This document shows positions 33,248 through 59,035 of a stretch of 64,000 nucleotides of DNA, piece by piece. The stretch is from Heterodera schachtii (lineage: Eukaryota > Nematoda > Chromadorea > Rhabditida > Heteroderidae). Location of the stretch: positions 350,267 to 414,266 of the forward strand of contig SIJG01000118.1 in assembly GCA_023374025.1 (NCBI GenBank). Reading direction: 5' to 3'. The first letter of the stretch is position 1. Every line of letters starts with the position of its first letter. The translations under genes were made by a program, and so were the position numbers. The notes beneath the pieces were generated by a model. The model was not told the DNA's origin. It ran no database searches and saw only the letters and a list, made by a program, of their open reading frames with translations.

Positions 33248-34171
33248 TTACACCGCATTATCCTCCGCTTCGTATGAATCATCGTCACAACTAGAGACCG
33301 GAAATTTCAAATTTGCGGATCCCGCTGCGGGATTGGTACTGAAAAATTTTGCGGGACCGGATCCCGCATGTATAAATCCCGCAATCCCGCAAATCCCGCA
33401 TTTAAGATTTGCGGGATCCCGCGCGGGATTGCGGGATTTTGGAAATTTCGAAAAATTCAATTAAATTTCCAAAAAACAAAAAATACCTGTCATTTTAAAA
33501 TGAAGTTTTAGGGGCTGACGGGATGCATTAAAAGGGGTTAATGGGCTGATCTATATTTTTAAGGGTCAGAGGGTTTGGAGAGAGATCGGCGACAAATTGT
33601 TAATGAATCCATCCATAAATCTAACTATTTTATTTTTAACTCAATTTTTGCGGCCCGCTTTTTCAAAAACTTTTCAGGAACAGAGGGTCCGGCGGTGCCG
33701 ATAGGCGCCGCCGGGGAAATTTTTTGAAAATTTTGTCAATTTCTTAATGATTTTGTCCAAAAAATGACCAAATATCACACTTTTGGACTCAATTTCTACC
33801 GAGTTAATAAGTAAAAGCTGGTCCGGCTGTGCCGATAGGCGCCGCCGGGAAATTTTTTTTGAAAATTATAAAAATTGAGAGAAAAATGGCTTTAATTTGA
33901 TTGAATTTGTTAAAAATTTATTCAAAAATATTTGGCATTTTGAAAAAAAAAATCAATAAAATCCCGCAGAATCCCGCACAAAAAGTCAAATTTGCGGATC
34001 CGCTGCGGGATTTGAACTCAAAATTTTGCGGGACGGGATCCCGCAGGTATAAATCCCGCAATCCCGCAAATACCGCATTTCCCAAAAAATGCGGGATTGC
34101 GGATTGGGATCCCGCAAAATCCCGCGCGGGATCCCGTCCCGCGCCGGTCTCTAGTCACAACTGCTGCCTTC
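33248..34171 (-). pseudogene. candidate terminal exon split by a hAT insertion
   Basis: After a GCTGTGCTTTAG acceptor at 34172-34174, the minus strand reads EGSSCD up to the hAT target site. The same frame resumes on the far side (DDSYEAEDNAV, stop at 33248-33250), counting the 8-bp duplication once. This short acidic tail may be the end of an otherwise unseen gene. The intron before it also received the Pao element. Coding status rests only on the acceptor and frame continuity. Confidence 0.33.
33292..34153. mobile_element. hAT-type non-autonomous element, 862 bp
   Basis: Ends TAGAGACCGG and CCGGTCTCTA match those of the 158-bp MITE at 32484. The 8-bp duplication GTCACAAC (33284-33291, 34154-34161) is exact and fits nTnnnnAn. 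Both subterminal blocks carry GCGGGATCCCGC-type words. The centre holds two copies of the GGCGCCGCCGG module (33690, 33830) known from 2800 and 12460. No transposase frame. Confidence 0.92.
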
Positions 34172-34290
34172 CTAAAGCACAGCGAAAAAAACAATTAAAA
34201 ACTGAGAAGTGCAGCCTTTGATAAAATTTTAAGGCCTTTTCTAATAAGCTTTTAAACTCAAAATCAAGAAACTTGTCATTTTCAAAACTT

Positions 34291-35161
34291 TGTCCCGACG
34301 TGCTCTGGGGTCGGGCCAAATGAATTCCGCGGTGCGGGGGTCAGGGGGGCAGGCAGGGACAAGAGCAACCAATTCAAACGCCGAAGAAAAATTAATAAAA
34401 AATTTATTCCGGGGGAGAGCCTCAAACTTGGGTAATTAAACATGAAAATGAAATGGTGAAAAATATCACAAATTGATCACAGAAATGCCATCACCGGGGA
34501 ATTATCACAAATGGAATTGGGCACCGGGATGGGACAGGAAAATTTCAGAAAGGAGGCATTCGGGCACCGGGGCAAATGGAAAATCACAGAAACAAATGAA
34601 TGGGACCGGGAGGAACAGAAATGGAAGGCACCGGGGCCACAGAACAAAGATCAATAACCGGGGGTCAGGAAATGATCACAATTGGGGAGTCATCACAGTT
34701 AAAGGCTGGAGGGACGGGGAGAGAAACGGCAAAAATGCCCAATAAATTTGGGTTGTAAATTTTGGGGGCATTTGGCCGTTTAAATAACAATAAAGTTAAA
34801 TAAAAAGTGGCAAATGTGAGCAGAACGAAAATGGACCAAAAATTGTGCACGAAATGAAAAACGGGGGACAAAATTGAACAGATGAACAAATTGGTGGAAA
34901 ACGGGAAATTTGGGGGTTCATCGTTCTTTGGAGTCGCATTCGCCAAATTGGGGGACGGGGGCGAAAAGTTGCGGTTTTGATGAATTGTTGATTAATTTGT
35001 GCGCGGGGCGGAGGGGGAACACAGAAAAACAATTAACAATTTGAAGGAAAAAGGGGGCAGAGGGATGGAACGGCGAAAACACGTCCCGCGGCGGGGGGGG
35101 GGGCGCCCTCCCTCTCAATTCGCCGATCATTGATTGGCGATCGGAATTTGAAATTCCGACA
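34291..35161 (-). repeat. 3' LTR of the Pao element
   Basis: 871 bp, TGTCCCGACG at the left and ATTCCGACA at the right on the plus strand. It contains the SL1-identical stretch (34421-34441) and an AATAAA signal (34403-34408) in the element's sense. Frames within it are shadows also found in the other LTR. The polypurine tract just upstream on the sense strand is not obvious. Confidence 0.95.
34421..34441 (-). promoter_or_regulatory. SL1 spliced-leader sequence inside the 3' LTR
   Basis: The same 21 bases as in the 5' LTR, unchanged, although the LTRs have diverged elsewhere. In this copy AATAAA begins 12 nt downstream, where it would direct 3' end formation. Confidence 0.93.
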
Positions 35162-35188
35162 TTCCGGCGCGAAAAATGATGGGGCCCG

Positions 35189-36046
35189 TCAGAATTCTTT
35201 TCGTCTGGGCCTCCCAAAGGGCGTGTCTTCCGTGAGGTCGAGGTGGCTCTGTGTTCGTGGTTGTTGGTACCGAGCCGTTCTGGCAATCATGTCCAATTTG
35301 ATTGGTGACATGGATCGGTGTTCTGCCCTGCGCGCCGGTGATTTGGGGGTTCGTGGCATTTCACGCAGCGGCATTCCCTCTTCGATCCCGAGTGGTTTGG
35401 AAATGGTGGGTCGAAGTTTCGGATGCTGGCGTACTCCAACGAGACTTAGAAGAGTAACTCTGATGGGGTTGAGCAAGTACGCCAGAAGGCATGGAAGTAT
35501 GATGTCGCGTAGCATGAGGAAGGTTGAGTAGACGCAGGCGACGCGAATCCACCACGTGATCGCTTCGTCAACAAGGCTTTTTAGCCAACGTACGGTGAAT
35601 CCTTCTATTCCGCCCTTCAGCGCGCCTAAAGCTTCCGTCCTAGCCGTGACATGTTGTTCCAGCTTCTCCTTGAACTGCTCCGAGTTGATGAATTCGTTGA
35701 TGTGTGGGAAACGTGTCGCGTCTGACTCATTGTCGAGCTGCCATGCGTGGAAGATCAGCGGATGAAGTTCCAAATTGCTGTTCGTTTGGTTGATTGTTGT
35801 CTCGTATAATTCGTGGACGTAATCCTTTGGCATTCGTCGTGCCGTGCCGGTTCGAGTATCGATCCACAACCAAATGTTGGGATTGCTCCGCAGTTGAAGA
35901 TGATGGAACCGGTAGCTATTACAGCTTGCCTGTTGAGCAGTCAGCGAGATGATGCGAAGTTCCGGATCCAAGAAGGCTGCGATAGCTCGGTCGGGAAAGT
36001 GCGCAGTAACGGGAATGTAGAGGCGACAGTCATTCATTGGCCTGTA
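35189..36046 (-). pseudogene. C-terminal part of Env-like protein beyond an in-frame stop
   Basis: The polyprotein frame continues in the same phase after the TAA at 36047-36049. An ATG at 36037 opens 282 codons to a stop at 35189-35191. The segment has a hydrophobic membrane-anchor region (about residues 155-200 of this part) followed by a long basic, Pro/Arg-rich tail, as expected for the end of a class of Env proteins. It ends 27 bp before the 3' LTR. The stop separates ectodomain from anchor: either a disabling mutation or a site of read-through. The Env family was not determined. Confidence 0.75.
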
Positions 36047-39000
36047 TTAGATGTCCTGTAGCGAAATGTTGACACATGGAAACACTTCCATTGTCGTCTC
36101 GCCGATCCAACGGGCTTGGATGTTTGCTTGCCGTAACAGTCTCCTGGCTTGTAACGTTGGGTTCGCGGCTCTCGAATTTCGTTGGCATTCTCTTATGTAG
36201 AGCTGGTTCAAAGCAACACTTGTCGCTACTTGAGAAGCCGAAAGTTGTGATGCGAGTTGCTCGGGCCGAATTCCTCTTTTCCACCTCCTCGTGGTGCTGA
36301 CAATGTCGTCGTACTGGTCTTTGGTAATCCCAAAGTTCTGTTCAGAGAGGACGATGCGTACGCCATCGCAGGCGATGAGTTCGGGAGCCTTTTTAGCGAA
36401 TGTCAAGGCCTTCTGATGATCGTCGGATATCCACGTGGCTACTGTTTCTCCGTAAGCGGCGGTGAATTTTCCACTGATGATTTCCGTCCGTTCGTAGTCG
36501 CACATTTTGCATTCGTCTCCAGAGCACGTCGATTTCCAAATCAGAGTCGTGTTGTCTTGCAACTGGCAGAATTCCGCAGAGTATTGACAGTTTTCGACTT
36601 GGTGGACTGGCGAAAGCATTTGTAGAGTTTGCCGTTTGATGAATACGGTTGCTGGCTGCACAAAGCAATTCGTAGCTGTGCTCGTCTGTTCGCCCTTGAA
36701 GAGTCCGGAAATGGGTCCTGGGAAGTTGACGTTCAGTTCGTCATTCGTTGACCACAGCTGTCCCTCGTGGTTGGTCATTTCGGACGTGGCGTATGGGCAT
36801 TCCTGGTGCAGTGCCATTTGCTTGCAGATGCGTTTGTTGACCGGTGGGAATTCTTTTACAATGGTCACAAACTTGTCGGCCAACAAATTTGTATAATAAT
36901 TCTCCGTCGTTCGTTTGACGGAGCAATGCCACGCGGAGTCAATCTGCTCTGGCCTGATGCTTTTGGCGTAGAGTTCAATTGCGAGATTGTGCCATTCCGC
37001 GGTGAGTGATGGTGGGGGACGACAGAATGGTGAACTCTCGGGGCCCTTGAGATCCCAAATCGTGCTGCCCCTGTCGGAACACCAGAAAACGTCCGCGCCG
37101 TCACGGTTCGTTCCCAAGTCTCTTTTCGCTGATTTTGCCGATTTGATTGTGCCAGGAGGTGTCGTTGCGTCCGTTTGTTGGCTTCTTGCTCTCGTGACGT
37201 ATTGGATTCGGGTTCGTCTTGTCGTCCGAGTTGATGCGCTGGTTGTTGGAGTCCATCTTTGCCTGGTGGTAGTCATCGGTGCCCATGTTGTCGTTGTCCA
37301 TGGACTTGTCTTCGTGGTGGTCATCATTTCAGTTTGAGTTTTTGTGCTGTACCACGACGAAGTTACTGGTGGGAGTGCGGTACTCAAAGTGCTTGTTGGT
37401 TCAAATGGCGGTGCAGTAGTGAGTGTGCTGTAGTGCGCGGATACCATTTGAAGGAATCGTTGAGCATTTTGGCTTAATGAGGCACGATGAATGCGTAGCG
37501 GAGCCGCTGCTGTTGGCTGAAGGAACAACAGCCCGAACATGCTGATGAACATCAGCATATTTATTGTGTTTCTGGACAAAAGACCACTGCTGCTTGCGGC
37601 TGATGTCGAAGGTGTCGGATCAACTTCCATGATTTCGTCTTCTTCTCGCGCCAAAATCATGTCGGTCAATTGTCTTGCTTCACCGGTTCGCCGGTGGTAG
37701 ACGAAAAAGCCTGCCTTGGCCGCCTTGGCCAGCTGGTAGCATTCGTTTTTGTTTTTAAGCCATGATTTTTCCTCTGTTTTTGCCAACACGATGGTGAGCT
37801 GAATGTCCGTCTTTGCGAGTTCTCGGACGTACGGAGTGATGCCTTTAGCCAAGTCGCTTTCATTGGCCAAGTAGCAGAAAATGATGTGCTGTACATCAGG
37901 TCCGGGGGATAGATGAAGTTTGTCCGAGGCATAGTGCGTGAACCATTGAGTTCTCGAGGCGTTCGCCAATTCTTCTGCCGCCAGATCTCCAACGCAAATG
38001 ATTTCGTGGTTGCTGTAGTGCTGGTTTGCTATCGCTGCTTTTGTTCGAGAAGCGACATTTGCGGTGAACTTGTTGAGGTTTTCGAGCCAATTCTCGAACT
38101 CGGATGCTTCTTTCCCTTCCATTGAAATTGGCCTGAGCTTTATTGGCTCAAATTGGTTCAGCTGCATTAATGCTCCAAAGCGATCACACGAATTGCTCCA
38201 TTGCTTGAGTAGGTCAATGAGTGGCGCTTGCTTCACAAGTTGTCGATTTTTGGCGATGAATTGCTCATTCCAGAATTTCTCGGCCAACTGTTTCGGTGTC
38301 AGCATGGATGGCATGACGTATTCCTCGTGGAGAATGACTGCTTCGCTCCGAAGGTTTAAGAGTCGTTGGACCCAATCGAAAAGCATTGCGTTCATCAGAG
38401 AATTTGCTTCGCAGTCTTCGAATCCGTTCAATTGCTTTTTGCGAGTTGAAGCAATTTGTTGGTACGTGCATTTGGCACAGCTTTCGTGACGTCCACCAGA
38501 ACATTCGGTTAAAATGTTATAACCGACGTATTGTTCTCCTTTTGGCCAGCTTTGTTGGTAGCATTCGATGCGTAACTCTTCCGGTTCTGGAATGTGCGGT
38601 GCTGGTGGGGGAGTGTGTCCCGCTCTCTGAACTCGTCGCTCGTTTTCCTCTTGAAGCTCGGAGGACGACACATCCTCCATGACGATGATTTCTGGTTCAG
38701 GCTCGCTTTCAATGACCGGTGGGCCATGGAAGACCATTTCTTCTGGCGTCAGATTGGTGTAATGGCCCTCCTTGAATCTGACGTTCATGGATGGCCGAGT
38801 ACCACCAAGGAATTCGGATGGTTCGACCAGTTTTCCTTTTTGGTCGTGCAATGTCCATCCTTGAGTTTCGAGCTGATGTAGCTCCCTGGAAGTGCGTCCG
38901 TTTTTCCAGAGAAACTGCCAATTGTCGTTGCCGTAAATCCGTTGACAGTACGTAAGCAGTACTTCGTTGTGTTTTGGCATGTCCTCGATTGGTCGACCTT

Positions 39001-42000
39001 TTGTTTTTTCTTTCATCGATTCGGCTTTCTTTGCACTCCAAAATGATCGTGCTTCTTCTCTTTCTTTGCGCGATGGTTTTTTGAATGCTTCTTCCGCTTC
39101 TTTTCGCTTTTCAGCTCGCTGCTGGTCGTGGGTTTCTCTCTCCTTCTGTTGCTCCTCTTTTTCTGCTTCCGTTTGTGCAGATGCCCTTGGCAAGTCGGCG
39201 AGCTTCTGCTTCAGTCTGTCTGATGTCTTTGTTCGTGCCTTCTCACGTTGCTTCTTCGCCATTTTTTGCTCGAATTCCTTTTGGACCGGTGGCGGCGCCT
39301 TTTCCACGGCGCGGCTTTCGTTGATAGCTTCCGTCGTTGCCTTGCTCCCGCCTTCTTGCTCTGAGATGGCGCAAAACAACTTGCGTAGTCCGGAGTCTTG
39401 TAATTCCCTTCTTTTGCGACGCGGTCCTTGAAGAGGGCTGTGCTGTTGCGGGATCGGCCGAAGAAATGCCCGTTTGCGTTTCGGAATGCGGAATCTGTTT
39501 TTCGGCTGCGGCATTTCATCCTCGCTGCCGGCGAGAGAGACGCTGTCGATGTCGTTGTCCAAGTTGCTCATGACGAAGGTGGTGAAGTGTGTTTCTGGAA
39601 ATTCGGGTTGAATTTCCAGACTGTAGAGCTGATTGACAGCTCTCCATTTTTCTTTCCCATTGTGGGAAATCAGGGCAGAACGGGATTTGTTATCCCGTCC
39701 TATTTGGACTTTAAGGACCCGGGCCAAGCTCCAGACTGATCGCGGATTTGCTTCTTCTTCAACAAGCACAATGTCTCCTTCGTTAGGAGTTTGCTGTTCG
39801 TTGTTCAATCGTTGGTTTGCACGTTCACGCAGGGAAAGGAGATATTCGGATCTCCAAATTTCCCAGAAGCTATTCAGTCTTGAATCTGCCTTCTGAAGCA
39901 TCGTTTTCAGCTTGTTGGGGTTCGGCTGGTATTCTGGATCTTCCGGATCCGTTGCCATTGACGGAAAATTCGTTTCCGTTGATCCGTACGGGATCAGAAA
40001 ATTGACCGGTCTGAGTACCGGGTCTGGTTCGCGGTCTGACTCAAAAGTCAGTGGGCGATGGTTCACAATTGCTTCGATTTCAACGACGAGTGTGCCGAAT
40101 TCGTCGAATGTGAGAAGTCTGCGTCCAATGCTTCTCCTCAAGGCATTTTTGGTAATGCCGATCAGTCGTTCCCAAGTGCCACCTTTCCATGGCGCATGGG
40201 CTGTGTTGAAATTCCAAGTGATTCCTTGATGAGCCAGCTGTTCTTGCACTTCGAGTGTGAGTAAGTCCGTGGTCCAATTTTCCTTGATGACCTTGGCTCC
40301 AGCGATGAAATTTGTCCCTTGGTCGGACAGGATGACTCTTGGTACACCGCGTCGGGCGGCAAATCTCCGGAACACGCGGAGAAAGGCTTCGGCAGAATAG
40401 TCATCTGCCACTTCCAAATGAATTGCTCGGATGACGAGGCAAGTGAAAAGTGCGACATACACTTTCACCGTTTCGGGGCCTCTCTTCACTTTTAGTGGAC
40501 CAAAGTAGTCAATGCCGGTGTTGTTGAAGGGTCGTGTCTCGTTGACTCGCTCTTTTGGCAGATTAGGAGCTTCGGGATAAGCGTATGGCTTCAGCTTTTC
40601 CCTTTTGCATGCCAAGCATCCAATTCGACTTGAGTAGAGGGCATTTTGGACCGTCTGTCTGCCCCTTGGAACCCAAAATTTCTCGCGAATTTTGGATAGA
40701 AGAATCCTCGGTCCACAATGCTTGTGAATCCGATCGTAGTGGACAATGATGAGTTTGGTTGTCCATGCTTCGGCGGGCAAAAATATCGGATTTTTGCTTT
40801 GGATGGGAAGATTGGCATTTCCCAGCCTTCCTTGGCACTTCAATGTTTCCAGAGGCTTAGACTTGAAAAGCTTCAAGTTATTGATGACTGATTCCGAGGG
40901 CCAATGTTGCAGTTGTGTTTCGATCAGCATCCATTCGTCGGCTATTTCCAATTCGTTTGCCGTTAATGGCCCTTTTTCCGATTGGTGCCCATGTGTGAGA
41001 AGCGGACTGTTCGTCGGTTCTGGATTTTGTCTCTTCTGAAGCATAGTCACCGCGAAGCGGATGACGTGAGCAGCGGTTGCTCTGAGACGATTCCAATTTG
41101 AGAAGCGCTCAAATTGGATTGCAGGGACGAATTCTTCGCGCTGTTGTACGGCATTACTCCATTCGACAATGGGAGGTTCCGTCACTTCCCTTATTTCTTC
41201 GCCAGGGTTGTAAGTGACGTTTGATTCCGGCCATTGGCTAACTTTGGTTAGCCACGCTGGGCCAAATCGCCAAAGCAATGACGATTGGAGACTCTGTGGG
41301 TCTGTTCCACGTGAAGCGATGTCTGCCGGATTTTCATCCGTTCGGATGTGCATGACTTTGAAGCGTGCTTCTCTGATTTTCTTCAGCCGATTACATACGA
41401 ATCTGTCGTATTTCCGTTCCTCTTTGAGCCTTTCGATTGAACATTGGCTGTCTGTCCAAAGTACGACTTGTTGGTCGTTGAAGTTGAGTTGAGTTTGGAC
41501 GAACTTGGTCACTTTGACTCCCAAAGTTAGCGCTTGGAGTTCCAATTTTGGAATTGTTGAATCGTGGTCGGCCACTTTGAGCGGTTTGACATGGCTTTTG
41601 CCAAAAATCAAGTTGCTTTCCTTTTTTCCGTAGGAAGTGTCTGCGAGCTGGTAAAGCGCGACGCCGAGTCCCGATTTGCTGGCATCGCAGAAGCAGTGAA
41701 ATTCCTCACTGGGACTTGTCGCAATGTGACGAGGGAATTCCACCCTGAAGTTGAAGCCGAATCCTTCCCACGCCTGCATTAGTTTGATCCAGTCAAGTGC
41801 CATCTTTTCCGGCAGCGGATCGTCCCATTTGAAATTCAAATTTTGGACGATTTGCAAAAAATGCTTGGCGGGCAACAGTGCCGGTGAAATAAGTCCAAGT
41901 GGGTCGTACACTTTTGCGATGTGTGACAGGATCTTCCGTTTTGTGGTTGGACTGCTGAAGATTGGCATTTTGAAGATCAGCTGGTCATGTCGTGGCTTCC

Positions 42001-45000
42001 ATTCGATGCCTAACACCTTTGTGTTTTCCAGGTCCTTGGCCAATTCGGATGAGTCAAGTTCTTTGAGCTCGTCAATGTGACTTCCGAAGAATTCGCGGAT
42101 CCGCATTCCGGCGGATTCAAAAATGATTTTTGCTTCCGTGACCAGTTGAGTGATGCTTTCACTTGGCGTGACTTCCATCATGATGTTGTCCACGTACAGA
42201 TTGTCACTGATGCGTTGTGCAACATCCGTGTCGTAAAGTGCAAGGTGCTCCCTGAGCGTGGCATTGAGCAGAAATGGCGACACGGTCAATCCGAAACTGA
42301 CTCGGCAGAATCGGAAAACGCGGAAGTCTTCTCGTTTCAGTTGTTCGAGATTTGCTTCCTTTGGTTTGGCAAGCCAAAGGAATCGTGTGGCATCGCGGTC
42401 CTGTTCTCTGACGCCCAATTGCAGGAATGCTTTCTCAATGTCGGCAAGGATGACCTTTTCCATGCGTCTGAATCGAAGGAGAATGCCGGTCAGGTCCTTC
42501 AAAAGTAGCGGGCCTGTGTGCAGGCATTCGTTGAGTGATGGTGCCGACGGAGTGGATTTGGGTTTTGCAGAGGCATCCATCACGATGCGGATTTTGGTCG
42601 TGGATTTGTCGGTTCGGATTACTGCCCTGTGTGGCAGGTAGTGGACTGGACCACATGAATGATCAGAATTGACCAATTCGATGATGGAATTTTGCTGTTG
42701 TTCATCCAGGATTGCTTGGTATTCGTCGACCAAGTTAATTGTCCGAAGCTTTCGGATGAGGCTTATGAGCCTTGCCTTTGCTTGATGGTAATTCGTTGGC
42801 AATTGTGCCACTCTATCGTTCCATGGTAATGCGATTTGGTATTTGTTGTTGACGAACGACAAGTTTTCCTTGAAATTTTTCATCACTTCATCACGATCGA
42901 TTGGCGTTGAAGAGTCGTCCATGCCAATGATGTTGAGGCCGTAGAACTTGTTGAGTTCTTCGTTGGCCTTCAAGTCTTCTTCCGTTGTGAAGACATTTTC
43001 GTCTGTGACCGTGAGGACGAATGTCACATTGGACGGTTGACTGAGTTCAATCCGTCCAGTGCCGCTGATGATTTTGCCAATTTTCGACTGGCAAATCGTG
43101 AATCCGCTCGGCAATCGTTCAATTGGCTGAACATGCAAGTCATGCCAGACATCCATTCCGAGCATGACGTCCGGTTGTCGTGACTCATGCGGCGGAAAAA
43201 GCTTCTTCTGTTGAAGCTGCTGCTTGTCCAATGTGTTCAGTTGGAGGACAGGCAAATTGTTGAGCAGAAACTTGAGTGCGTTCAAGTTGAAAATAAGTCG
43301 GTCCCCGTTGGGACATAGAAAGCCGATTGCGACTCGGTCGCTGACGTAACGCTTCGGTTCGCGTTCGCCGAAGCTTGTAAGGAAGCATTCTTCCGTTCTG
43401 AGCACGGTCAGTTCGAGCTGTTTGGCTGCCGTGTTTGAAATGAATGACCGGTGGCTTCCCGGGTCAATGAAGACGGTTGCCATCATGCTTTGGCATGGCC
43501 TCGACGGGTTGAAAATTGTGGCCATTGTTGTCATTAGCAGAGCTCGGGTGTCACTGCTTTGAACGGCGTTGCTCATTGATTGTGCCGTTGGATTTGTGGA
43601 TTTCTGCTCATCCTGATTTGGGTGCCGTTCCGTTACGGCTGCTGCTTGTTGTGATTGCGTTGCGGCATTTGTGCCTTCTTGGCAGAGTATGGCCGGGTGC
43701 AGCTGTCTGCATTTGTAGCATTTGATTGGCCTTGGGCACTCGCTGGCCCGATGGTTTGACTTCAAGCACTTGAAGCACAATCCTTTGTCTCGAACAAAGG
43801 CTGACCGTTGCTGTACGGTGTTGTATCTCTGGCATTCTTCGTTCCAGTGATTTCCATTGCAGAAAAGGCACGGTGAGGGTGGCTTCCTAGGTCCGGCTTG
43901 AATTGCGGTGCCATTCCGGATTGGCACAGTTGAAGGCGCTTGAGTTGGCCTTAGTCCCTTCGGTTGGGAGTTCCGCAGTTGCTGCTTGTTGTGGTTCACT
44001 TGCTTATGAACCTCCTCAATTGTTGAGGACATGAAAGTGCGTTCCCGAATGGCGGGAGTTGCATTGCGGTTCCGGAAATTTGCTGCGAAATTGCGTGTTC
44101 GCGGTGCTTGTGCTTGAGTCGCTGGCCTTGCTGGCCGATCGATTGATTGATGGTGGTGCCCGTACTCGCCCAACACTTCTTGGATTTGGACTTCTTTTCG
44201 TACGGCTTCGTTTAGCACGTCCCGAAATTTGGTTGTCGTCCAATTTGCCGGATCCTCTCCTTTCTTGTTGAGGATGTTTCGCAGGAATGCTGGCGTCAGC
44301 TTCTTTTCCAGCATGAGGAATACTTGAGGACCTTCGATGTCCTCTCCGGCATTGTTCAGCTCCCTTGTGAGCCGCTCGAGCTGAAGCAGAAAGTCTTTGG
44401 TCTCACGGAGGCCTCGGCATGGCTTGAGATTGGCCAATTCGAAGTGAAGACTTCTGATGTGTTCCTCCGGAGCTCCGTACGTGTCCTTTAGCAGCTGAAG
44501 GACCGTCTCGTAGTTTGCGTCTTCCAGCCGGAAGCCCGCTATGAGTTCTCGTGCTTCTCCGCCCAGCAGATTGCGGAGCAAGTTCAGCTTCTGTGCTTTG
44601 CTGATTGATTGGCTGCCGATTGCTGATTTGAATGACTCGTAGAATTCGGGCCATTTTCGCTTTTGGCCGAAGAATTTGTCCAGCTGAATTGGCTGGAATT
44701 GGTAGAGCGGTGCCGTGAATGTCGGTGCCGCCATTGGCGCTGCCATGGCTGGTGGCATGGGCGCTTGTTGCTGCGGATTAGCCAATTGATCCGCTTTTGC
44801 TTCTCTGTCGGCTCTGCCTTTGTGCAGTTTGGCTGCGGCACTGAGCGTTGCTTCGAGATCTCGCAAATCCCGAAGTTTGGTTGTTGCTGCGTCGTATCGC
44901 TCGGCGATTTTCTCATTCTTGTCGAATTTGACGTATTCTTTTTCGCCGTTGTCTTTGTCGTCTCCGATCAGTCGGGCGAGAAGTTCGATCCAGGCGTTGG

Positions 45001-45199
45001 ATGAATCTCGTAGACTGTCCATCTGCATTTCCATCGAGCGAATTTCCTTGACGACGCGATCAAATTGAGCCTCCAAGTTGACGGCATTTTCCCAGTTTGA
45101 TAGGTCAGGATCGGGGTGAAGAAGGAGTGAGGTGGCGCTTTTGGCATTGTCGAGGGCTTTCAGTGCATTGATGATCCCTTTTTGTATTGGCCCAGACAT
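36047..45199 (-). CDS. Pao/BEL Gag-Pol-Env polyprotein, 3050 aa
   Basis: One open frame from ATG 45199 to TAA 36047-36049. Approximate residues: coiled Gag 1-430; three CCHC-like knuckles 443-510 ([40 protein letters not shown]); aspartic protease about 578 ([10 protein letters not shown]); reverse transcriptase with [10 protein letters not shown] about 916 and YVDN about 1000, where YVDD is usual; RNase H about 1167 ([10 protein letters not shown]); integrase His/Cys region about 1480-1520, core GIDYFGP about 1560 and LSDQGTNF about 1623; DUF5641-like domain 1808-1869. Then a region of about 670 residues of unknown nature, an internal signal-like hydrophobic segment about 2546-2567, a Thr-rich mucin-like stretch 2586-2670 and an Env-like ectodomain rich in Cys with a basic RRWKRG site about 2970. 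A 544-nt leader precedes the ATG. Confidence 0.93.
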
Positions 45200-45327
45200 T
45201 GTGGCAAGTTTGTGCGTGTTTGTGCGTGTGTGCGTATGTGTGTGTGTGCGTGTGTGTGCTTGTTGTTTTGTGTCTCTTGCCGGATCAGTCTGGCCTTGGC
45301 CCTGGGGCCTTTGGGACCTCTGTGACT

Positions 45328-45648
45328 AAACACCTGCCTCGGAGGACAAGGTGTTTGCCTTTTGCCTTATGGCTAAACTAAAGCCTCGGAGGACTGTTAG
45401 TTTGCCTTTTTTCCTTATTTGTCAGTGGCCTAGTGCGCGCTTAAACACCCTTTTTGAACGAAGTACTTCCTCGAAGGGCAAGTACTACGTTCACTAAAAC
45501 CTTCACACCTCTACCCTTTGCTTAAGACGAAGTACTTCCTCGGAGGGTAAGCACTAAGTCTGCTATGTCCCTCGTGAAGTTAGGCCTCGGAGGACCGTAA
45601 CTACACGAAACTATGAACACTAGACAAGCCTCGGAGGGTCTTGTCTAG
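45328..45648 (-). promoter_or_regulatory. six tandem leader hairpins with one shared loop
   Basis: Between the primer site and the gag ATG are six stem-loops: 45328-45356, 45375-45403, 45456-45492, 45525-45561, 45572-45608 and 45620-45648. On the plus strand each loop contains CCTCGGAGG (CCTCGAAGG in the third). Stems of 7-11 bp are unrelated in sequence yet pair, for example AAACACCT/AGGTGTTT, AAACTAA/TTAGTTT and CTAGACAAG/CTTGTCTAG. Different stems presenting a constant loop is the mark of selected RNA structure. The leader position suggests packaging, dimerisation or translation control. Confidence 0.85.
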
Positions 45649-45720
45649 GCTCTCTAATTTGCTTTTTCCTTTCCCCCTTTGTCACCGGGATCCGTCGATT
45701 CAGTCCGTGGTTCACAGCAG

Positions 45721-45740
45721 ATCCAGCTGCAGGAGCGCCA
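45721..45740 (-). promoter_or_regulatory. putative tRNA primer-binding site
   Basis: Three bases inside the 5' LTR the sense strand reads TGGCGCTCCTGCAGCTGGAT. The initial TGG complements a tRNA CCA end. The tRNA was not identified. Confidence 0.6.
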
Positions 45741-45855
45741 ATTTGTCCCGACGTGCTCTGGGGTCGGGCCAAATGAATTCCGCGGTGCGGGGGTCAGGGG
45801 GGCAGGCAGGGACAAGAGCAACCAATTCAAACGCCGAAGAAAAATTAATAAAAAA

Positions 45856-45861
45856 TTTATT
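45856..45861 (-). terminator. AATAAA polyadenylation signal in LTR (also 34403-34408)
   Basis: AATAAA on the element's sense strand, 12 nt after the SL1 stretch and before a T-rich tract. In the 3' LTR it would define the end of R. Confidence 0.65.
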
Positions 45862-45873
45862 CCGGGGGAGAGC

Positions 45874-45894
45874 CTCAAACTTGGGTAATTAAAC
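45874..45894 (-). promoter_or_regulatory. SL1 spliced-leader sequence inside the 5' LTR
   Basis: Twenty-one consecutive bases, sense strand, equal positions 2-22 of the nematode SL1 leader; GTTTAATTACCCAAGTTTGA is the first 20. The base before them is T instead of the first G of SL1. The next bases are GCTCTC, not the GT donor of an SL RNA gene, so this is leader sequence and not an SL RNA gene. A 21-base match cannot be chance. Position just upstream of AATAAA suggests the start of R. Confidence 0.93.
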
Positions 45895-46620
45895 ATGAAA
45901 ATGAAATGGTGAAAAATATCACAAATTGATCACAGAAATGCCATCACCGGGGAATTATCACAAATGGAATTGGGCACCGGGATGGGACAGGAAAATTTCA
46001 GAAAGGAGGCATTCGGGCACCGGGGCAAATGGAAAATCACAGAAACAAATGAATGGGACCGGGAGGAACAGAAATGGAAGGCACCGGGGCCACAGAACAA
46101 AGATCAATAACCGGGGGTCAGGAAATGATCACAATTGGGGAGGCATCACAGTTAAAGGCTGGAGGGACGGGGAGAGAAACGGCAAAAATGCCCAATGAAT
46201 TTGGGTTGTAAATTTTGGGGGCATTTGGCCGTTTAAATAACAATAAAGTTAAATAAAAAGTGGCAAAATTGGGCAGAACGAAATGGGGCCGAAAATTGTG
46301 CACGAAATGAAAAACGGGGGACAAAATTGAACAAATGAACAAATTGGCGGAAAACGGGAAAATTGGGGGTTCATCGTTCTTTGGAGTCGCATTCGCCAAA
46401 TTGGGGGACGGGGGCGAAAAGTTGCGGTTTTGATGAATTGTTGATTAATTTGTGCGCGGGGCGGAGGGGGAACACAGAAAAACAATTAACAATTTGAAGG
46501 AAAAAGGGGGCAGAGGGATGGAACGGCGAAAACACGTCCCGCGGCGGGGGGGGGGGGGCGCCCTCCCTCTCAATTCGCCGATCATTGATTGGCGATCGGA
46601 ATTTGAAATTCCGACAACTT

Positions 46621-47852
46621 TTTCCCGGCGGCATCGAAATTGATCAACTTAAAATTTTAGTTAAAAAATTATGAATTTTTGGAAATTAAAGAAAATAATA
46701 AATTTTGCATTTGATTGGTTCTCTCTGTGGTGCAATGGTCTTTGAAAAATTTTAATGGAAAACTATGGTGTATGTGTGTGGTGGAGGGGGAAAACGTATA
46801 ACCTTCGTGGAGTTACGCGCTGCCGCCCCCCCCCCGCGAGTTTTTTATTGAAAATGAAATTTAATTGAAATTTTTGTTGAAAACTTGGATAAGATTTTAA
46901 TTGTAAAAAATGTCTTGCGGTGTCCTGAAAAGATGCGGTCACAAAAAAGACAAAACCCCCGAAAAAAAATTGAATTTAATGAATTATTTAACTCTTAACA
47001 GGTAATTCGAAATTAAATTTAATTATGAATGAGCGAAGGTTAAAACACTGAGGAAAGCGTGAAAGAAGACAAATGTCGGGAGATATTAATGGAAAGATCA
47101 TTGATCAATATTACAAATGAATTTGCCAAAAATGGAACATTTGTCAAAAAGCAAGAAATATTTTTTTAGAAATGGCACAGACACACCACACCTAAACAGA
47201 AAGCGTTTTCTGATTTGTGCCACACGGAAATTTTCACAAAAATTTGAAGGCTCAATAGTTTTAAAAGTGGTGTGAAAAGCGGGCATTTCTGCTGAAGAAG
47301 TCGGACAATGAGAAGAGTGCAAAATGGTGGAAAGTGGAGAGAATGAAATGATCATAATAAATGGTATATGATTTTCTGTTTTTTGTCCCGTGTCTCTCTT
47401 TCTTATTCGTTATGGAAATGCCACCGGCCGTCATTAGCGAAGGTGAGATGGAGAACGGCAAATCATCATCTGCCTACTGCATGCGCTCTGAAACAATTAA
47501 ATAAAAGATATAATGGTGCGTTTCTTGAAAACTGCCCCAAATGTACATTTCCTAAACCAGGTTGCGCCCGGCCCGAATTAGGTCATTTTTAGGTAAAGCC
47601 GGCTTGATATTCCGCATCCGAGCGCAACCCATCACCCCGAGTTTGATTTAGAACGACTTAGGCTTTTTGGCACATTGAAACATATACACATATTATGGCA
47701 TTTTTGGAAGAATTTTAAGAACCAAAGAAAATAGAAAAATACACCCAATGGATTTTCTTGTCTTTTAAAGTATTTTAAAATTTTCTTTAAAATATTTCGA
47801 GTGCCGAAAATAACCAAATCAAATTATGGTTATTGGATTTCGAAGTTCCCTG
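46621..47852. other. mostly non-coding flank of the Pao element
   Basis: AT-rich, with a poly-C tract near 46827. One small open frame (47413-47505) is listed separately. Nothing else recognised. Confidence 0.4.
47413..47505 (+). CDS. possible short exon or peptide
   Basis: Not recognised. ATG at 47413 opens a 30-codon frame (MEMPPAVISEGEMENGKSSS, AYCMRSETIK) ending TAA. Composition is ordinary, but it is short, has no clear acceptor upstream and could be chance. Confidence 0.2.
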
Positions 47853-52712: not shown

Positions 52713-54653
52713 ATGATTATTTCAAAGTTATTGTTTTTGTTATTGAGTGGAGTTTTTTATTTGATTTCGCTGGGCTCATCTGATCACTCTGACAAAAAAC
52801 AAATGCATATTGATCACATAAACAAATCCGAATCAATGGAATCATCTGATCACTCTGACAAAAAACAAATGCATATTGATCACCCAAACAAATCCGAATC
52901 AATGGACTCATCTGATAATTCTGACAATAAACTAATGCATATTGATCACCCAAACAAATCCGAATCAATGGACTCATCTGATAATTCTGACAAAAAACAA
53001 ATGCATATTGATCATCCAAACAAATCCAAATCAATGGGTTCACCGGATCACTCTGATAAATTAAAACCAATGCATGTTGATCACCCAAACAAATCCGAAT
53101 CAATGGACTCATCTGATCACTCTGACAAAAAACAAATGCATATTGATCACCAAAACAAATCCGAATCAATGGGTTCATCGGATCACTCTGATAAATTAAA
53201 ACCAATGCATGTTGATCACCCAAACAAATCCGAATCAATGGACTCATTTGATCACTCTGACAAAAAACAAATGCATATTGATCACCAAAACAAATCCGAA
53301 TCAATGGGTTCACCGGATCACTCTGATAAATTAAAACCAATGCATGTTGATCACCCAAACAAATCCGAATCAATGGACTCATCTGATAATTCTGACAAAA
53401 AACAAATGCATATTGATCACCCAAACAAATCCAAATCAATGGGTTCACCGGATCACTCTGATAAATTAAAACCAATGCATGTTGATCACCCAAACAAATC
53501 CGAATCAATGGACTCATCTGATCACTCTGACAAAAAACAAATGCATATTGATCACCAAAACAAATCCGAATCAATGGGTTCATCGGATCACTCTGATAAA
53601 TTAAAACCAATGCATGTTGATCACCCAAACAAATCCGAATCAATGGACTCATTTGATCACTCTGACAAAAAACAAATGCATATTGATCACCAAAACAAAT
53701 CCGAATCAATGGGTTCACCGGATCACTCTGATAAATTAAAACCAATGCAAGTTGATCACCAAAACAAATCCGAATCAATGGACTCATTTGATCATTCTGA
53801 CAAAAAACAAATGCATATTGATCACCCAAACAAATCCGAATCAATGGACTCATCTGATCACTCTGATAAATTAAAACCAATGCATGTTGATCACCAAAAC
53901 AAATCCGAATCAATGTACTCATCTGATAACACTCACAAAAAACAAATGCATATTGATCACCAAAACAAATCCGAATCAATGGACTCATCTGATCATTCTG
54001 ACAAAAAACAAATGCATATTGATCACCAAAACAAATCCGAATCAATGGACTCATCTGATCACTCTGATAAATTAAAACCAATGCATGTTGATCACCAAAA
54101 CAAATCCGAATCAATGGACTCATCTGATAACACTCACAAAAAACAAATGCATATTGATCACCAAAACAAATCCGAATCAATGGACTCATCTGATCACTCT
54201 GATAAATTGAAACAAATGCATATTGATCATCCGAATAAAACCGAATCAATGGACTCATCTGATAACACTCACAAAAAACAAATGCATATTGATCATCCAA
54301 ACAAATCCGCATCTATGAATTCATCTGATCACTCTGATAAATTGAAACAAATGCATATTGATCATCCGAATAAAACCGAATCAATGGATTCTGTTCATTC
54401 AAATGAATCAATTGAAATAATTTTTAGTGATTTATCTGCACAAAAACCTTCAAAACAGATATTTTCAAATGATGAAAAGCATTCATTTGTTCTGCGATTT
54501 ATTGAATTAAAAAAGAAATGTCTTTCTCGCGGTTATAATGGCCCAATTAAAAATTTGGAAACAACAATTAGTGACAAATTGGGCGTAAAACGTGGCACCA
54601 TTCATTATTGGAAAGGAATTTTTGGTGTTAAACGTAAGTGTTCTAATTACTAA
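52713..54653 (+). CDS. secreted repeat protein with HTH-like basic C-terminus, 646 aa
   Basis: Single open frame. Residues 1-21 (MIISKLLFLLLSGVFYLISL) form a signal peptide. Twenty-four tandem units of 22-23 residues follow, of two alternating types: SDHSDKKQMHIDHPNKSES and SDHSDKLKPMHVDHPNKSES. They are rich in His, Asp, Ser and Lys, and could bind metal (inference). Units 4-9 and 10-15 are nearly the same six-unit block (405 bp), showing recent expansion. After the repeats come about 85 unique residues: FVLRFIELKKKC, ETTISDKLGVKRGTIHYWKG and a basic VKRKCSNY end, which reads like a helix-turn-helix DNA-binding module. Signal peptide, repeats and variable copy number resemble secreted effectors of cyst nematodes; family membership is not established. 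No clear trans-splice site is seen. Confidence 0.72.
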   Translation: MIISKLLFLLLSGVFYLISLGSSDHSDKKQMHIDHINKSESMESSDHSDKKQMHIDHPNKSESMDSSDNSDNKLMHIDHPNKSESMDSSDNSDKKQMHIDHPNKSKSMGSPDHSDKLKPMHVDHPNKSESMDSSDHSDKKQMHIDHQNKSESMGSSDHSDKLKPMHVDHPNKSESMDSFDHSDKKQMHIDHQNKSESMGSPDHSDKLKPMHVDHPNKSESMDSSDNSDKKQMHIDHPNKSKSMGSPDHSDKLKPMHVDHPNKSESMDSSDHSDKKQMHIDHQNKSESMGSSDHSDKLKPMHVDHPNKSESMDSFDHSDKKQMHIDHQNKSESMGSPDHSDKLKPMQVDHQNKSESMDSFDHSDKKQMHIDHPNKSESMDSSDHSDKLKPMHVDHQNKSESMYSSDNTHKKQMHIDHQNKSESMDSSDHSDKKQMHIDHQNKSESMDSSDHSDKLKPMHVDHQNKSESMDSSDNTHKKQMHIDHQNKSESMDSSDHSDKLKQMHIDHPNKTESMDSSDNTHKKQMHIDHPNKSASMNSSDHSDKLKQMHIDHPNKTESMDSVHSNESIEIIFSDLSAQKPSKQIFSNDEKHSFVLRFIELKKKCLSRGYNGPIKNLETTISDKLGVKRGTIHYWKGIFGVKRKCSNY

Positions 54654-54659
54654 AACTAG

Positions 54660-54880
54660 CGGGTGCGTGAACCGTCGGATCTGGGCCTGGGAAAAAGCGC
54701 TTCGCGCTTCTTGAGCTTCGCTACCTAGACTTTAAAACGATTCAAATTGATCGAATTTGTTGGGGAGATTTTTTTGTTGTGAAAAATTTGGATTAAAAAA
54801 ATTCAGTGATTTTTAGGCCGCTTCGCGGCCTTGAATGGGCGCTTCGCGCCCGTTTTAAATTTAGTTGGACTCAGACGGGC
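54660..54880. repeat. TTC-loop hairpins downstream of the repeat gene
   Basis: Three compact GC hairpins: AAGCGC-TTC-GCGCTT (about 54695), GGCCGC-TTC-GCGGCC (about 54817) and GGGCGC-TTC-GCGCCC (about 54837). The second is identical to the hairpin repeated at 22350-22590. Confidence 0.7.
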
Positions 54881-54883
54881 ACT

Positions 54884-55660
54884 TCGTACAACCATGGCGG
54901 AAGGGGTACAGCCACAGGGGAAGTGGTACAACCACGGGGGAAGAGGTACAACCACGGGGGAAGAGGTACAACCACAGTGATTAAAAGAGGTACAACAGTA
55001 ATTAGAAGAGGTACAAAAGTGATGAGAAGAGGTACAAAAGTGATTAGAAGAGGTACAAAAGTGATGAAAAGAGGTATAAAAGTGATTAGAAGAGGTACAA
55101 CCACAGTGATTAAAAGAGGTACAACAGTAATTAGAAGAGGTACAAAAGTGATGAGAAGAGGTACAAAAGTGATTAGAAGAGGTACAAAAGTGATGACAAG
55201 AGGTACAAAAGTGATTAGAAGAGGTACAACCACAGTGATTAAAAGAGGTACAACAGTAATTAGAAGAGGTACAAAAGTGATGAGAAGAGGTACAAAAGTG
55301 ATTAGAAGAGGTACAAAAGTGATGACAAGAGGTACAAAAGTGATTAGAAGAGGTACAAAAGTGATGAAAAGAGGTATAAAAGTGATTAGAAGAGGTACAA
55401 CCACAGTGATTAAAAGAGGTACAACAGTAATTAGAAGAGGTACAAAAGTGATGAGAAGAGGTACAAAAGTGATTAGAAGAGGTACAAAAGTGATGAGAAG
55501 AGGTACAAAAGTGATTAGAAGAGGTACAAAAGTGATGAAAAGAGGTACAAAAGTGATTAGAAGAGGTACAACAGTGTTAAGAAGAGGTACAACAGTAATG
55601 AGAAGAGGTACAATGGTGATAAGAAGAGGTGAAACAGTGATTAGAAGAGGTACAAAAATG
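54884..55660. repeat. 21-bp minisatellite kept open as a reading frame
   Basis: About 35 units of AGAGGTACAAAAGTGATTAG type (21 bp, with 24-bp variants adding a codon) run with no stop in one forward frame (ATG 54806 to TAA 55666, 286 codons, RRGTKVI repeats) and also in the reverse. No signal peptide, homology or splice signal supports translation. It is best described as a minisatellite that may be transcribed. Confidence 0.85.
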
Positions 55661-55666
55661 CATTAA

Positions 55667-57340
55667 TTATTTTTGAAAATTGTAAAATAAATTCCTTTTT
55701 TTATTCCTTTTTTTATTAATTAAAAATAACCTTTAAAGCTTACAATAATTTAAATTTATTTAAATTGAAATTAAATTAATCTCTGACTAACTCAAATAAA
55801 AAAATATATGTAATGCTTTAATTAAAAAAATATTAATTAATTTTAATAAAATTTTTGACAAAAAAAAATAATTTAAAATTAAAAAATTTTATTTTTTATT
55901 AAAACAACAAACACTCTTTTAAATGAATTAAAAGCATTGAAAATAAACTCAAAAAAATAAATAGAAAATAATGTACACCGCCCGGATTCGAACGCCCCCC
56001 CCCCTCAAAATGATGCCTCAGAATCCCCAATCACACAGGGATTCTGCCCTTTGGTCCAGAATCCCAAAATCACTTTTATTTTTATAACAATTTTTAAAAA
56101 AGTGATAAAAATTTAAAATAAATTTTATCTTCTAGAGCAAAAAATTGCGGATTTTTGTAGTATTTTAATTTTCCAGAATGACTTTTCAGAACTGAGTTAT
56201 AAAAAAATTTCTGAAAAATCGAATTTTTCCAGAAATTCTGGAATAACTTTTTTCATTTTAGAGATAGAAATACCAAATAAATCCCATAAAATTCTCCTTA
56301 TTTTTTGCTATTTTTAATGTTTTATTTCATTAAAATTTATCAACCCTTCGATTTGTTATGAATTTTCAAAAATTAGCTCAAAATCTCGAGGGCCAAAAAA
56401 TTGCCAAAAAATAAAGAATTTTTAAAAAATTCCAAAAAATATGAAACTGAAAATTAACATCATATTCGTGCTCAGCACCATAAATTACCCCAGAAAAATA
56501 TTTTTGACCACTATTTTCCTCCGAAAAAAAATTCCGGAAAATTTCTAGGGGGCCTAGCTCGAAAATTTTTGAAAATTTCCGCCCATATAGCACACCGTTC
56601 GATAGAGCTCAAAAAGCTCTACAATTTTGCTCTAAGCCAATTTTTGGCTAAAACCGACTCCTGACGAGTTATGGGCCCGGGACTCAAATGTCCCGCTCAG
56701 GCCAAAAATTTTTTCTATTTCCGAGAAAAAATCAAAATTTTTTCGAAAAAAATACCATTCGATAGAGCTCGAAAAACTGTTGCTTGAAAGTGGTCTCCGT
56801 TTTTCTGGGAAAAATCGGCTAAAAATCCTAAAATTCAAAAATTGAAAAACCGAATTTTAGGCCTAACTCGAAAATTTTTGAAAATTTTCGAAATTTTAAA
56901 ATTTGGAAAAATCAGGGCTCATTGAGCTCTACAATATGTCTGCTGGCATCCCCTGGCTTAGTTCAAACCCTAATGAGTTATTCGCTCGGTACTGACCCGG
57001 ACAATGTTGGTACTGAAAAAGTTCACGAACCTACAGCCTTCCCTATTTGAGTTAGAGGCCTGGAATTTTTTTTGATTTTTAGAAAACACTTCAACTTAGG
57101 TCCCTACCAGCGGAAACTTTTTGATTAGAGTTTCAGAAAAAAAGTTACGGGCCTTGAAACGCAAGCAAAATCGGGAAATTAGCCGCTGGGACTCAGTTAG
57201 CACTCTGATCAAAAAACCTATAGTTTTCCCAGATGCCCCGACCCAAGATGCATACCTATGCCAAATTTCAGCCCTCTACCTTTATCCAGTCTTGAGATTT
57301 CCTTTTTGCCAACGAAACCCCTTGTCGATATAACATATAT
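55667..57340. other. no gene seen
   Basis: Very AT-rich, then (56340-57100) a stretch of loosely repeated phrases such as CTCGAAAATTTTTGAAAATT and CGATAGAGCTC that looks like decayed transposon. A poly-C tract with an adjacent GGATTCGAAC word lies at about 55985. Confidence 0.4.
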
Positions 57341-58077: not shown

Positions 58078-59035
58078 CTAAATCCAATAATAGGAAAATA
58101 TTGATCATAGTCCCCAAACTCAAAAATGCTTAAAAACGTCAGAATCGATGTAAAAAGGTTCGAAATGGGTTGGAAAAATAGAATTAGGGGAGCGCTTGCC
58201 CTTTTCAGGCTGAAAAAGTGCCGGAATTGGGGTGCCAAACTCAGCTGGGACTCAAATGACCGCACTATAAAAAGCACTAAAAAGACATTTTAAATAATTT
58301 TTCTAGGGTAATTTGTGGCGCTGATCACGAATATGACCTTTATTTTGCAAACTTCCGAACCCCGAACCCTAATTCGAACAAAATTTTAAATTTAGAAAGG
58401 ACGTCAAATATAAAAGTTTGAATTTGCATATTGCGCTAAAAAACCGCCGCACACTCGACTACGGCGGCCAGTAGGTGGGGCGAGACTACGGGCTACGGAA
58501 GAAGTCCGCGCGTGATCCGCAGGCGATTGACTGATTGGCGGGGGCCCTTCGGGCCCCCGCAGTCAACCGCCTGTGGCGCTCGTCAGACTGCTTCCTCCGC
58601 CCTCCGTCTCGCCCCACTACTTGCTCCGTCTTCGCATGCTCCCTTTTGCGAAAATGTTCATAACCGTGTTCAGCAACCTCGAAAACCCCTAAAAATTCGT
58701 TTTTCATTTAATTTATAAATTTTAAATTTTGTTCGAATTAGGGTTCGGGGTTCGGAATTTCGCAAAATAAAGGTCATATTCGTGATCAGCGCCACAAATT
58801 ACCCTAGAAAATTATTTAAAATGTCTTTTGAGTGCTTTTATAGCACGGCCAATTGAGTCCCAGCTGAATTTGGCACTCCATTTTCGGCACTTTTCATCCT
58901 GAAAAAGGGCAAGCGCGCCCATAATTCTATTTTTCCAACCCATTTCGAACCTTTTTACATCGATTCTGACCGTTTTTATGCATTTTTGAGTTTGGGGACT
59001 ATGATCAATATTTACCCAATAATACTTTTTAATTC
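58078..59035. mobile_element. large foldback element, ~320-bp arms
   Basis: Arms 58078-58395 and 58720-59035 are inverted copies of about 90% identity (shared words TTCGAAATGGGTTGGAAAAA, GGGTAATTTGTGGCG, TTCGGGGTTC). The centre holds a GC-rich block with the perfect hairpin GCGGGGGCCC-TTC-GGGCCCCCGC (about 58538-58560) and other complementary pieces. No transposase. Target duplication was not determined. Confidence 0.8.

Follow-up and report, generated by a model that had tools for sequence, protein, structure and literature searches.

In hosts that trim and replace the 5' ends of their mRNAs, LTR retrotransposons risk losing to trans-splicing the 5' copy of R on which strand transfer depends, and how they cope is an open problem. 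A Bel/Pao LTR retrotransposon on the minus strand of the window (the whole 64-kb stretch of DNA from the cyst nematode Heterodera schachtii that was analysed) raises this problem in concrete form, as the spliced leader SL1 is embedded in both of its LTRs. How did the leader come to lie there, and what keeps it in place?

The element was identified by its Pfam domains and LTRs. Direct-repeat comparison delimited a 5' LTR of 873 bp (45744-46616, minus strand, as for the features that follow) and a 3' LTR of 871 bp (34291-35161), which are identical at 861 of 875 aligned positions (98.4%) and have the termini TGTCGG...GGGACA. As expected for Bel/Pao, the TG..CA-ended pair is bordered by a target-site duplication within the usual 4-6 bp, here the 4-bp ACTT (plus strand) at 46617-46620 on the 5' side of the element and 34287-34290 on the 3' side. 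The primer-binding site presumably lies just inside the inner edge of the 5' LTR (45720-45743). A gag-pol ORF of 3050 aa (36047-45199) contains the Pao gag domain DUF1759 (44276-44674), a DUF1758 peptidase (43061-43510), part of a reverse transcriptase (RVT_1, 42230-42475), the Pao retrotransposon peptidase Peptidase_A17 (41447-41944), an integrase core (rve, 40190-40510, just below the cut-off) and DUF5641, which lies C-terminal to Pao integrases (39620-39895). DUF1759, A17, RT, integrase and DUF5641 thereby agree with the Pao domain order, with RVT_1, rve and Integrase_H2C2 scoring below the cut-off in the pieces searched. A further ORF of 282 aa (35189-36037) matched no Pfam family itself. 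The protein closest to it comes from Heterodera trifolii (99% across 87% of the query), followed by one from Globodera pallida (57%), and this second homologue (P0002) scored a little under the cut-off against a model of a viral fusion glycoprotein; the ORF is thus possibly env-like. Elsewhere in the window, positions 52794-54509 and 54842-55721 hold tandem repeats spaced about 66/69 and 21/24 nt apart, each spacing being a multiple of three, and positions 58132-58976 hold a nested inverted-repeat pair with arms of 131-141 nt that are 86-87% complementary.

The sequence-only reading had reported that both LTRs carry positions 2-22 of SL1, oriented as the element is and 12 nt ahead of AATAAA, and this was borne out. 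The 21 bases (GTTTAATTACCCAAGTTTGAG) are exact at 45874-45894 in the 5' LTR and 34421-34441 in the 3' LTR, in equivalent places of the two direct repeats, and AATAAA lies 12 nt 3' of each (45856-45861 and 34403-34408). When up to three mismatches were allowed, these two sites were the only ones in the window, and none of 100 shuffles gave any. Position 1 of SL1 (G) is missing from the window LTRs because the preceding base is T; in the LTR-type contexts of the genome defined below it is present in 120 of 143 and absent in 23, the window's among them. The same reading had denied that this is an SL RNA gene, correctly as judged here. SL1 in the window is followed by GCTC rather than a GT donor, the intron with an Sm site and the RF00198 match that mark such genes are absent from the window LTRs, and an Rfam search of positions 34000-47000 at E 0.1 returned no match. 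What is found is the arrangement of an SL-tagged cDNA, in which the exact 3' end of the leader runs straight into element sequence and the SL RNA intron is missing.

The window LTRs are one case of a genome-wide pattern. The assembly searched spans 178.49 Mb in 356 contigs, and SL1 was the only leader searched for. The assembly contains 230 exact copies of SL1 (2-22), against none of the reversed control, and the base that follows is A in 87, G in 91 and C or T in 52. Forty-four copies, nearly all in arrays, overlap matches to the SL1 RNA family RF00198, and in the array copies that were read a donor is present and an Sm-like stretch lies downstream. RF00198 had 45 genomic matches, the best at 56 bits and all under the 75-bit cut-off. 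Of 223 copies that were located, 45 are of SL RNA type (the 44 matching RF00198 and one degenerate copy) and 178 are dispersed. The flanks of the dispersed sites collapsed to 176 distinct contexts: 11 SL RNA, 22 LINE-like and 143 LTR-type, the last assigned by exclusion as neither of the others. Five rows were re-called LINE-like once the state of their poly(A) signal was known (four without, one with), which left 138 LTR-type contexts. In 133 of these (134 of 143 before the rows were dropped) NATAAA begins -1 to 13 nt after SL1, and the specific form AATAAA accounts for 89 of the 133; when 5712 points in the U3s of these contexts were tested likewise, the background came to 0.8%. Over all 230 copies, 98 have AATAAA 2-23 nt downstream, with none in the control. 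A scan of viral contigs for SL1 gave no match.

This uniform position is held in sequences that are otherwise very diverse. When the 140 nt immediately upstream of SL1 and the 90 nt immediately downstream were grouped separately, the LTR contexts fell into about 27 U3 classes and 24 R-U5 classes. The 178 dispersed sites include 36 pairs of copies 1-17.5 kb apart on the same strand and none on opposite strands. A target duplication of 4-5 bp was read by eye in 11 of 15 LTR pairs, the window pair also being computed; L085/L084 and L048/L047 have none, and L040/L039 and L087/L088 could not be read either way. That the stretches are fragments of SL RNA genes, or products of collapsed or chimeric assembly, is so improbable that we set it aside. 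SL RNA gene arrays do contain SL1, but the LTR-type contexts lack the intron start GTAC, the RF00198 matches lie elsewhere than the window LTRs, and an assembly error would have to account for 178 dispersed sites on many contigs and for the target duplications. A chance origin is ruled out by the shuffles, the reversed control and the low poly(A)-signal background.

SL1 is restricted to a part of the retroelement complement. Peptidase_A17 marked 135 rows, which became 122 Pao hits after 13 adjacent fragments were merged. Same-strand SL1 within 9 kb brackets 14 of the 122 and flanks 21 on at least one side, leaving 101 without an exact copy at that distance. Among the best 150 of 544 Ty3 candidates (RT_RNaseH_2), none was bracketed and two were flanked on one side, and SL1 as a Ty3-wide feature was accordingly rejected. 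Some loci without an A17 hit bear the Pao gag domain DUF1759 (L048, L054). The SL1 LTRs that could be classified all belong to Pao elements, with the exception of one helicase-bearing family, and many SL1 classes stay unclassed. In the helicase family, which has the R' ATGGAAC and a 289-bp LTR, an AAA_12 helicase and a zinc knuckle replace a recognised pol, and the ORF sits before the 3' LTR (L053:2-1096, L083:3-899).

The sequence-only reading had held that SL1 would be an accidental capture if transcription started far from it and related Pao families lacked it at this position. The lack is real for 101 of the 122 hits, whereas the carriers keep SL1 in one fixed place. Possibly SL1 was captured from trans-spliced element RNA on one or a few occasions and has been passively inherited since, its place before AATAAA reflecting no more than a short R and any mosaics being made by ordinary recombination at shared stretches. 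There is a precedent of SL1 near elements of this kind in Brugia malayi, and few captures might suffice, since the classifiable carriers are Pao elements apart from the helicase family. We nevertheless regard this course of events as quite unlikely, in the first place because SL1 is exact while the U3s and R-U5s around it have diverged beyond recognition. A search for SL1-N7-AATAAA at up to three mismatches returned 41 exact sites, one of them LINE-like (L032). Beyond the known exact-SL1 sites it added three with one mismatch (one of which could be an exact SL1 outside the located set), none with two and ten with three, compared with one in the control. Wherever SL1 stands in this arrangement it is thus exact with few exceptions, even where U3 and R-U5 have diverged past alignment, and both renewal and selection fit such exactness.

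Repeated leader addition would leave traces of its own. If SL1 were trans-spliced onto an RNA that already holds SL1, only the leader's own AGs could serve as acceptors. Use of the last AG would renew the leader exactly and invisibly; use of the inner AG (CCCAAG|TTTGAG) would produce SL1-TTTGAG; and use of an AG made of A plus G1 would produce SL1-SL1, a repeat of 21 nt. In the 165 contexts that are not SL RNA, the longest exact suffix of SL1 repeated after SL1 was 0 nt in 141, 2 nt in 11, 6 nt in 12 and 21 nt in one; lengths of 3-5 and 7-20 nt did not occur. The 2-nt repeats (AG) are all in one LTR group. The 6-nt repeats are TTTGAG, and their 12 contexts trace to about ten lineages, of which eight are LTR and two are LINE-like. 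Additionally, TACCCAAGTTTGAG followed by TTTGAG occurs at 18 genomic sites, 13 of them at exact SL1 sites. Locus L016 has three leader layers, the outermost bearing one change, and L184 has a second leader copy with three extra bases, which is hence not of acceptor length. The addition can be seen almost in isolation in L102 and L103, which are identical over 250 of 250 nt upstream of SL1 and, TTTGAG aside, differ once in the 70 nt to the LTR end. The 6-nt repeat could in principle have arisen by slippage. The usual acceptor in nematodes is TTTTCAG, which the AAG and GAG of SL1 match poorly. No leader layers of acceptor length were found in the window's own family (13 contexts, class U4 D2); they are present in its relatives. 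Leader additions in about ten lineages are more than inheritance from a few captures would lead one to expect.

The layers bear equally on another explanation, in which the LTR promoter starts RNA at SL1 without any trans-splicing, for instance for the benefit of translation, and selection keeps the leader intact. Neither SL1-TTTGAG nor SL1-SL1 is predicted by such an encoded start, and neither are LINE-type copies tipped with SL1. Such copies exist, with SL1 at their start and an endonuclease domain in two of those searched (L001, L006). In 11 of 11 loci picked for this feature (L001, L006, L014, L158, L165, L168, L169 and L180-L183), U6 snRNA lies directly upstream of SL1. At L158 two U6 matches precede SL1. 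The U6-SL1 fusion resembles the template switch between U6 and L1 in mammals. Together with the leader layers, these SL1- and U6-tipped copies make it very likely that trans-spliced RNA has been copied into DNA in this genome.

Two further features upstream of SL1 could speak for an encoded start. The hexamer TGTATT is found 17-40 nt before SL1, about the distance of a TATA-like box, in 10 of 34 representatives from 7 U3 classes; over the stretches of up to 250 nt examined, 12 of 13 occurrences fall at -17 to -40 and one elsewhere. Many U3s also end in TTCG, as do SL RNA genes. The hexamer may act like a TATA box or, since TGTA is the CFIm site and is expected upstream of a poly(A) signal, it may serve 3' processing. 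The suggestion of the sequence-only reading that SL1 is encoded at the transcription start keeps some standing through these representatives, although the window element lacks the hexamer. Three short patterns taken from the upstream block shared by SL RNA genes matched none of the 34 LTR representatives, which tells against an encoded start and lends no support to the further suggestion that SL1 works here as an SL RNA-type promoter. Overall, a promoter that starts RNA at SL1 without trans-splicing seems to us unlikely, if still deserving of attention. Palindromes with a stem of at least 5 that end within 8 nt of SL1 occur in 13 of 31 U3 representatives, compared with a background of 9.2%. 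Differing palindromes able to form hairpins lie in the last 24 nt before SL1 at L127, L087, L008, L017, L051, L072, L078, L011 and others; the U3 of the window element has none that ends at SL1.

Some LTRs are, moreover, mosaics joined at the leader. U3 and R-U5 classes occur in several cross combinations. L087 and L088 share 200 of 200 U3 positions and 71 of 110 in R-U5, where both R-U5s fall in one loose class (D0), the LTRs may belong to one element or two, and the end of L088 is broken. The R-U5 of L088 agrees at 99 of 100 positions with that of L104, where the U3s agree at 123 of 231, and at 99 of 100 with that of L113, where the U3s are likewise unrelated. Similarly, L047 and L096 match at 99 of 100 positions in R-U5 and 135 of 243 in U3, L017 and L090 at 95 of 102 and 119 of 230, while L011 and L071 show the reverse, with 188 of 202 in U3 and 64 of 116 in R-U5. 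In these pairs the switch coincides with SL1 or lies no more than about two bases away, and U3-side insertions or losses end exactly at SL1 in L020/L023, L021/L055 and W/L068. Variation is modestly raised just before SL1 (mean 0.28 at -10..-1 vs 0.14-0.23 in the other upstream bins); the 0.28 found 0-10 nt downstream reflects TTTGAG insertions and family swaps. Joints that fall at SL1 count against mere inheritance of a captured leader. Some LTR mates do differ in dense patches away from SL1 and are identical elsewhere (L048/L047, L070/L069, L092/L091), a pattern that patchy conversion or template switching might leave and that would suit inheritance with ordinary recombination.

We consider it probable, reasoning from these sequence patterns, that SL1 is the start of R in many Bel/Pao and some other LTR elements, and that it is captured and renewed through trans-spliced RNA. 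The reading builds on direct observation of the position and spread of SL1, the permitted repeat lengths, the mosaics and the SL1- or U6-tipped LINE-type copies. The RNA of the element would start within U3, upstream of SL1, and the host SL1 snRNP would add SL1 by trans-splicing, using as acceptor an AG that lies at the encoded leader or within it. Strong-stop cDNA would then terminate at or beside the first base of the leader and move to the 3' end of an RNA by means of SL1 and the short stretch between it and the poly(A) site. Transfer through SL1 would leave the leader in both new LTRs and, because SL1 is common to many families, could combine a U3 and an R-U5 that come from different families. 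We infer the RNA 5' end, trans-splicing in living elements and the use of SL1 as transfer homology. R itself is probably very short, with SL1 at its start; adding up the leader, the gap, AATAAA and a usual cleavage distance, we infer a length of roughly 45-60 nt. The sequence-only reading had proposed that trans-spliced RNA was copied back and the leader fixed in R, and that an R tipped with SL1 would still permit strand transfer; acceptor-length repeats, SL1-joint mosaics and the shared place ahead of the poly(A) signal in many LTR classes support both. The window family itself counts against renewal, being without leader layers and mostly without position 1 of SL1, which exact renewal should restore. 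The missing base could be explained by reverse transcription halting one base before the cap. A more far-reaching proposal, that SL1 is a self-renewing R that serves a guild of retroelements as a shared replication terminus and as the common joint at which U3s and R-U5s are reassorted, is offered tentatively, at somewhat short of an even chance. On this proposal every trans-splicing event at the leader's last AG would rewrite SL1 and so keep it exact, and unrelated families that share it could exchange their strong-stop DNAs.

A leader fixed in R would solve the loss of the 5' end, and the solution would be readable in the DNA of other nematodes. In effect, a host RNA-processing step seemingly became part of how these retrotransposons copy themselves, and their LTRs would be a natural record of template switching among retroelement families. 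The pattern could account for SL1 loci outside SL RNA genes in Heterodera glycines and B. malayi, and it advises caution in taking SL1 at the start of a read as proof of trans-splicing.

Related observations are available from several systems. In B. malayi, 120 SL1 copies lie outside SL RNA genes, 60 of them within 1 kb of PAO elements, and a same-strand SL1 pair occasionally flanks such an element; the authors inferred that expressed PAO RNA had received leaders, which then became integrated (PMC7181701). The accessible sections of that paper do not describe a position in the LTR, R, the poly(A) signal, repeated addition, mosaics or renewal. The cyst nematode H. glycines has a similar surplus, with SL1 at 180 loci, 22 of them near an Sm motif; it uses at least 21 SLs, of which HgSL3 is the commonest, and roughly one in three of the genes tagged with an SL co-aligns with a repeat, the commonest annotated one being LINE/CR1 (PMC6362198). 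The surplus is left unexplained and an LTR position undescribed in the parts of that report consulted. The C. elegans element Cer1 is likewise an LTR element, and its spliced RNA occurs with and without SL1, but it is related to Gypsy/Ty3 and its full-length RNA is apparently not trans-spliced at the site used by SL1, according to the available portion of the study (PMC3315495). In the open-licence literature, as far as its accessible text goes, we found no mention of an R that starts with SL1, of LTR layering of acceptor length or of mosaics joined at SL1. There is also a likeness in mechanism with dinoflagellate retrogenes, in which, as proposed here for SL1 LTRs, leader-bearing RNA is copied to DNA and tagged again, so that leaders become stacked; a promoter role for the leader has also been discussed (PMC6050394). 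Those are ordinary genes rather than LTR elements, and R, strand transfer and exact renewal do not feature in the sections of the paper at hand. SL1 beside PAO elements in Brugia and the surplus loci of H. glycines were thus known before, and what the H. schachtii genome adds is the anatomy of the SL1 LTR, its layering and the mosaics joined at SL1.
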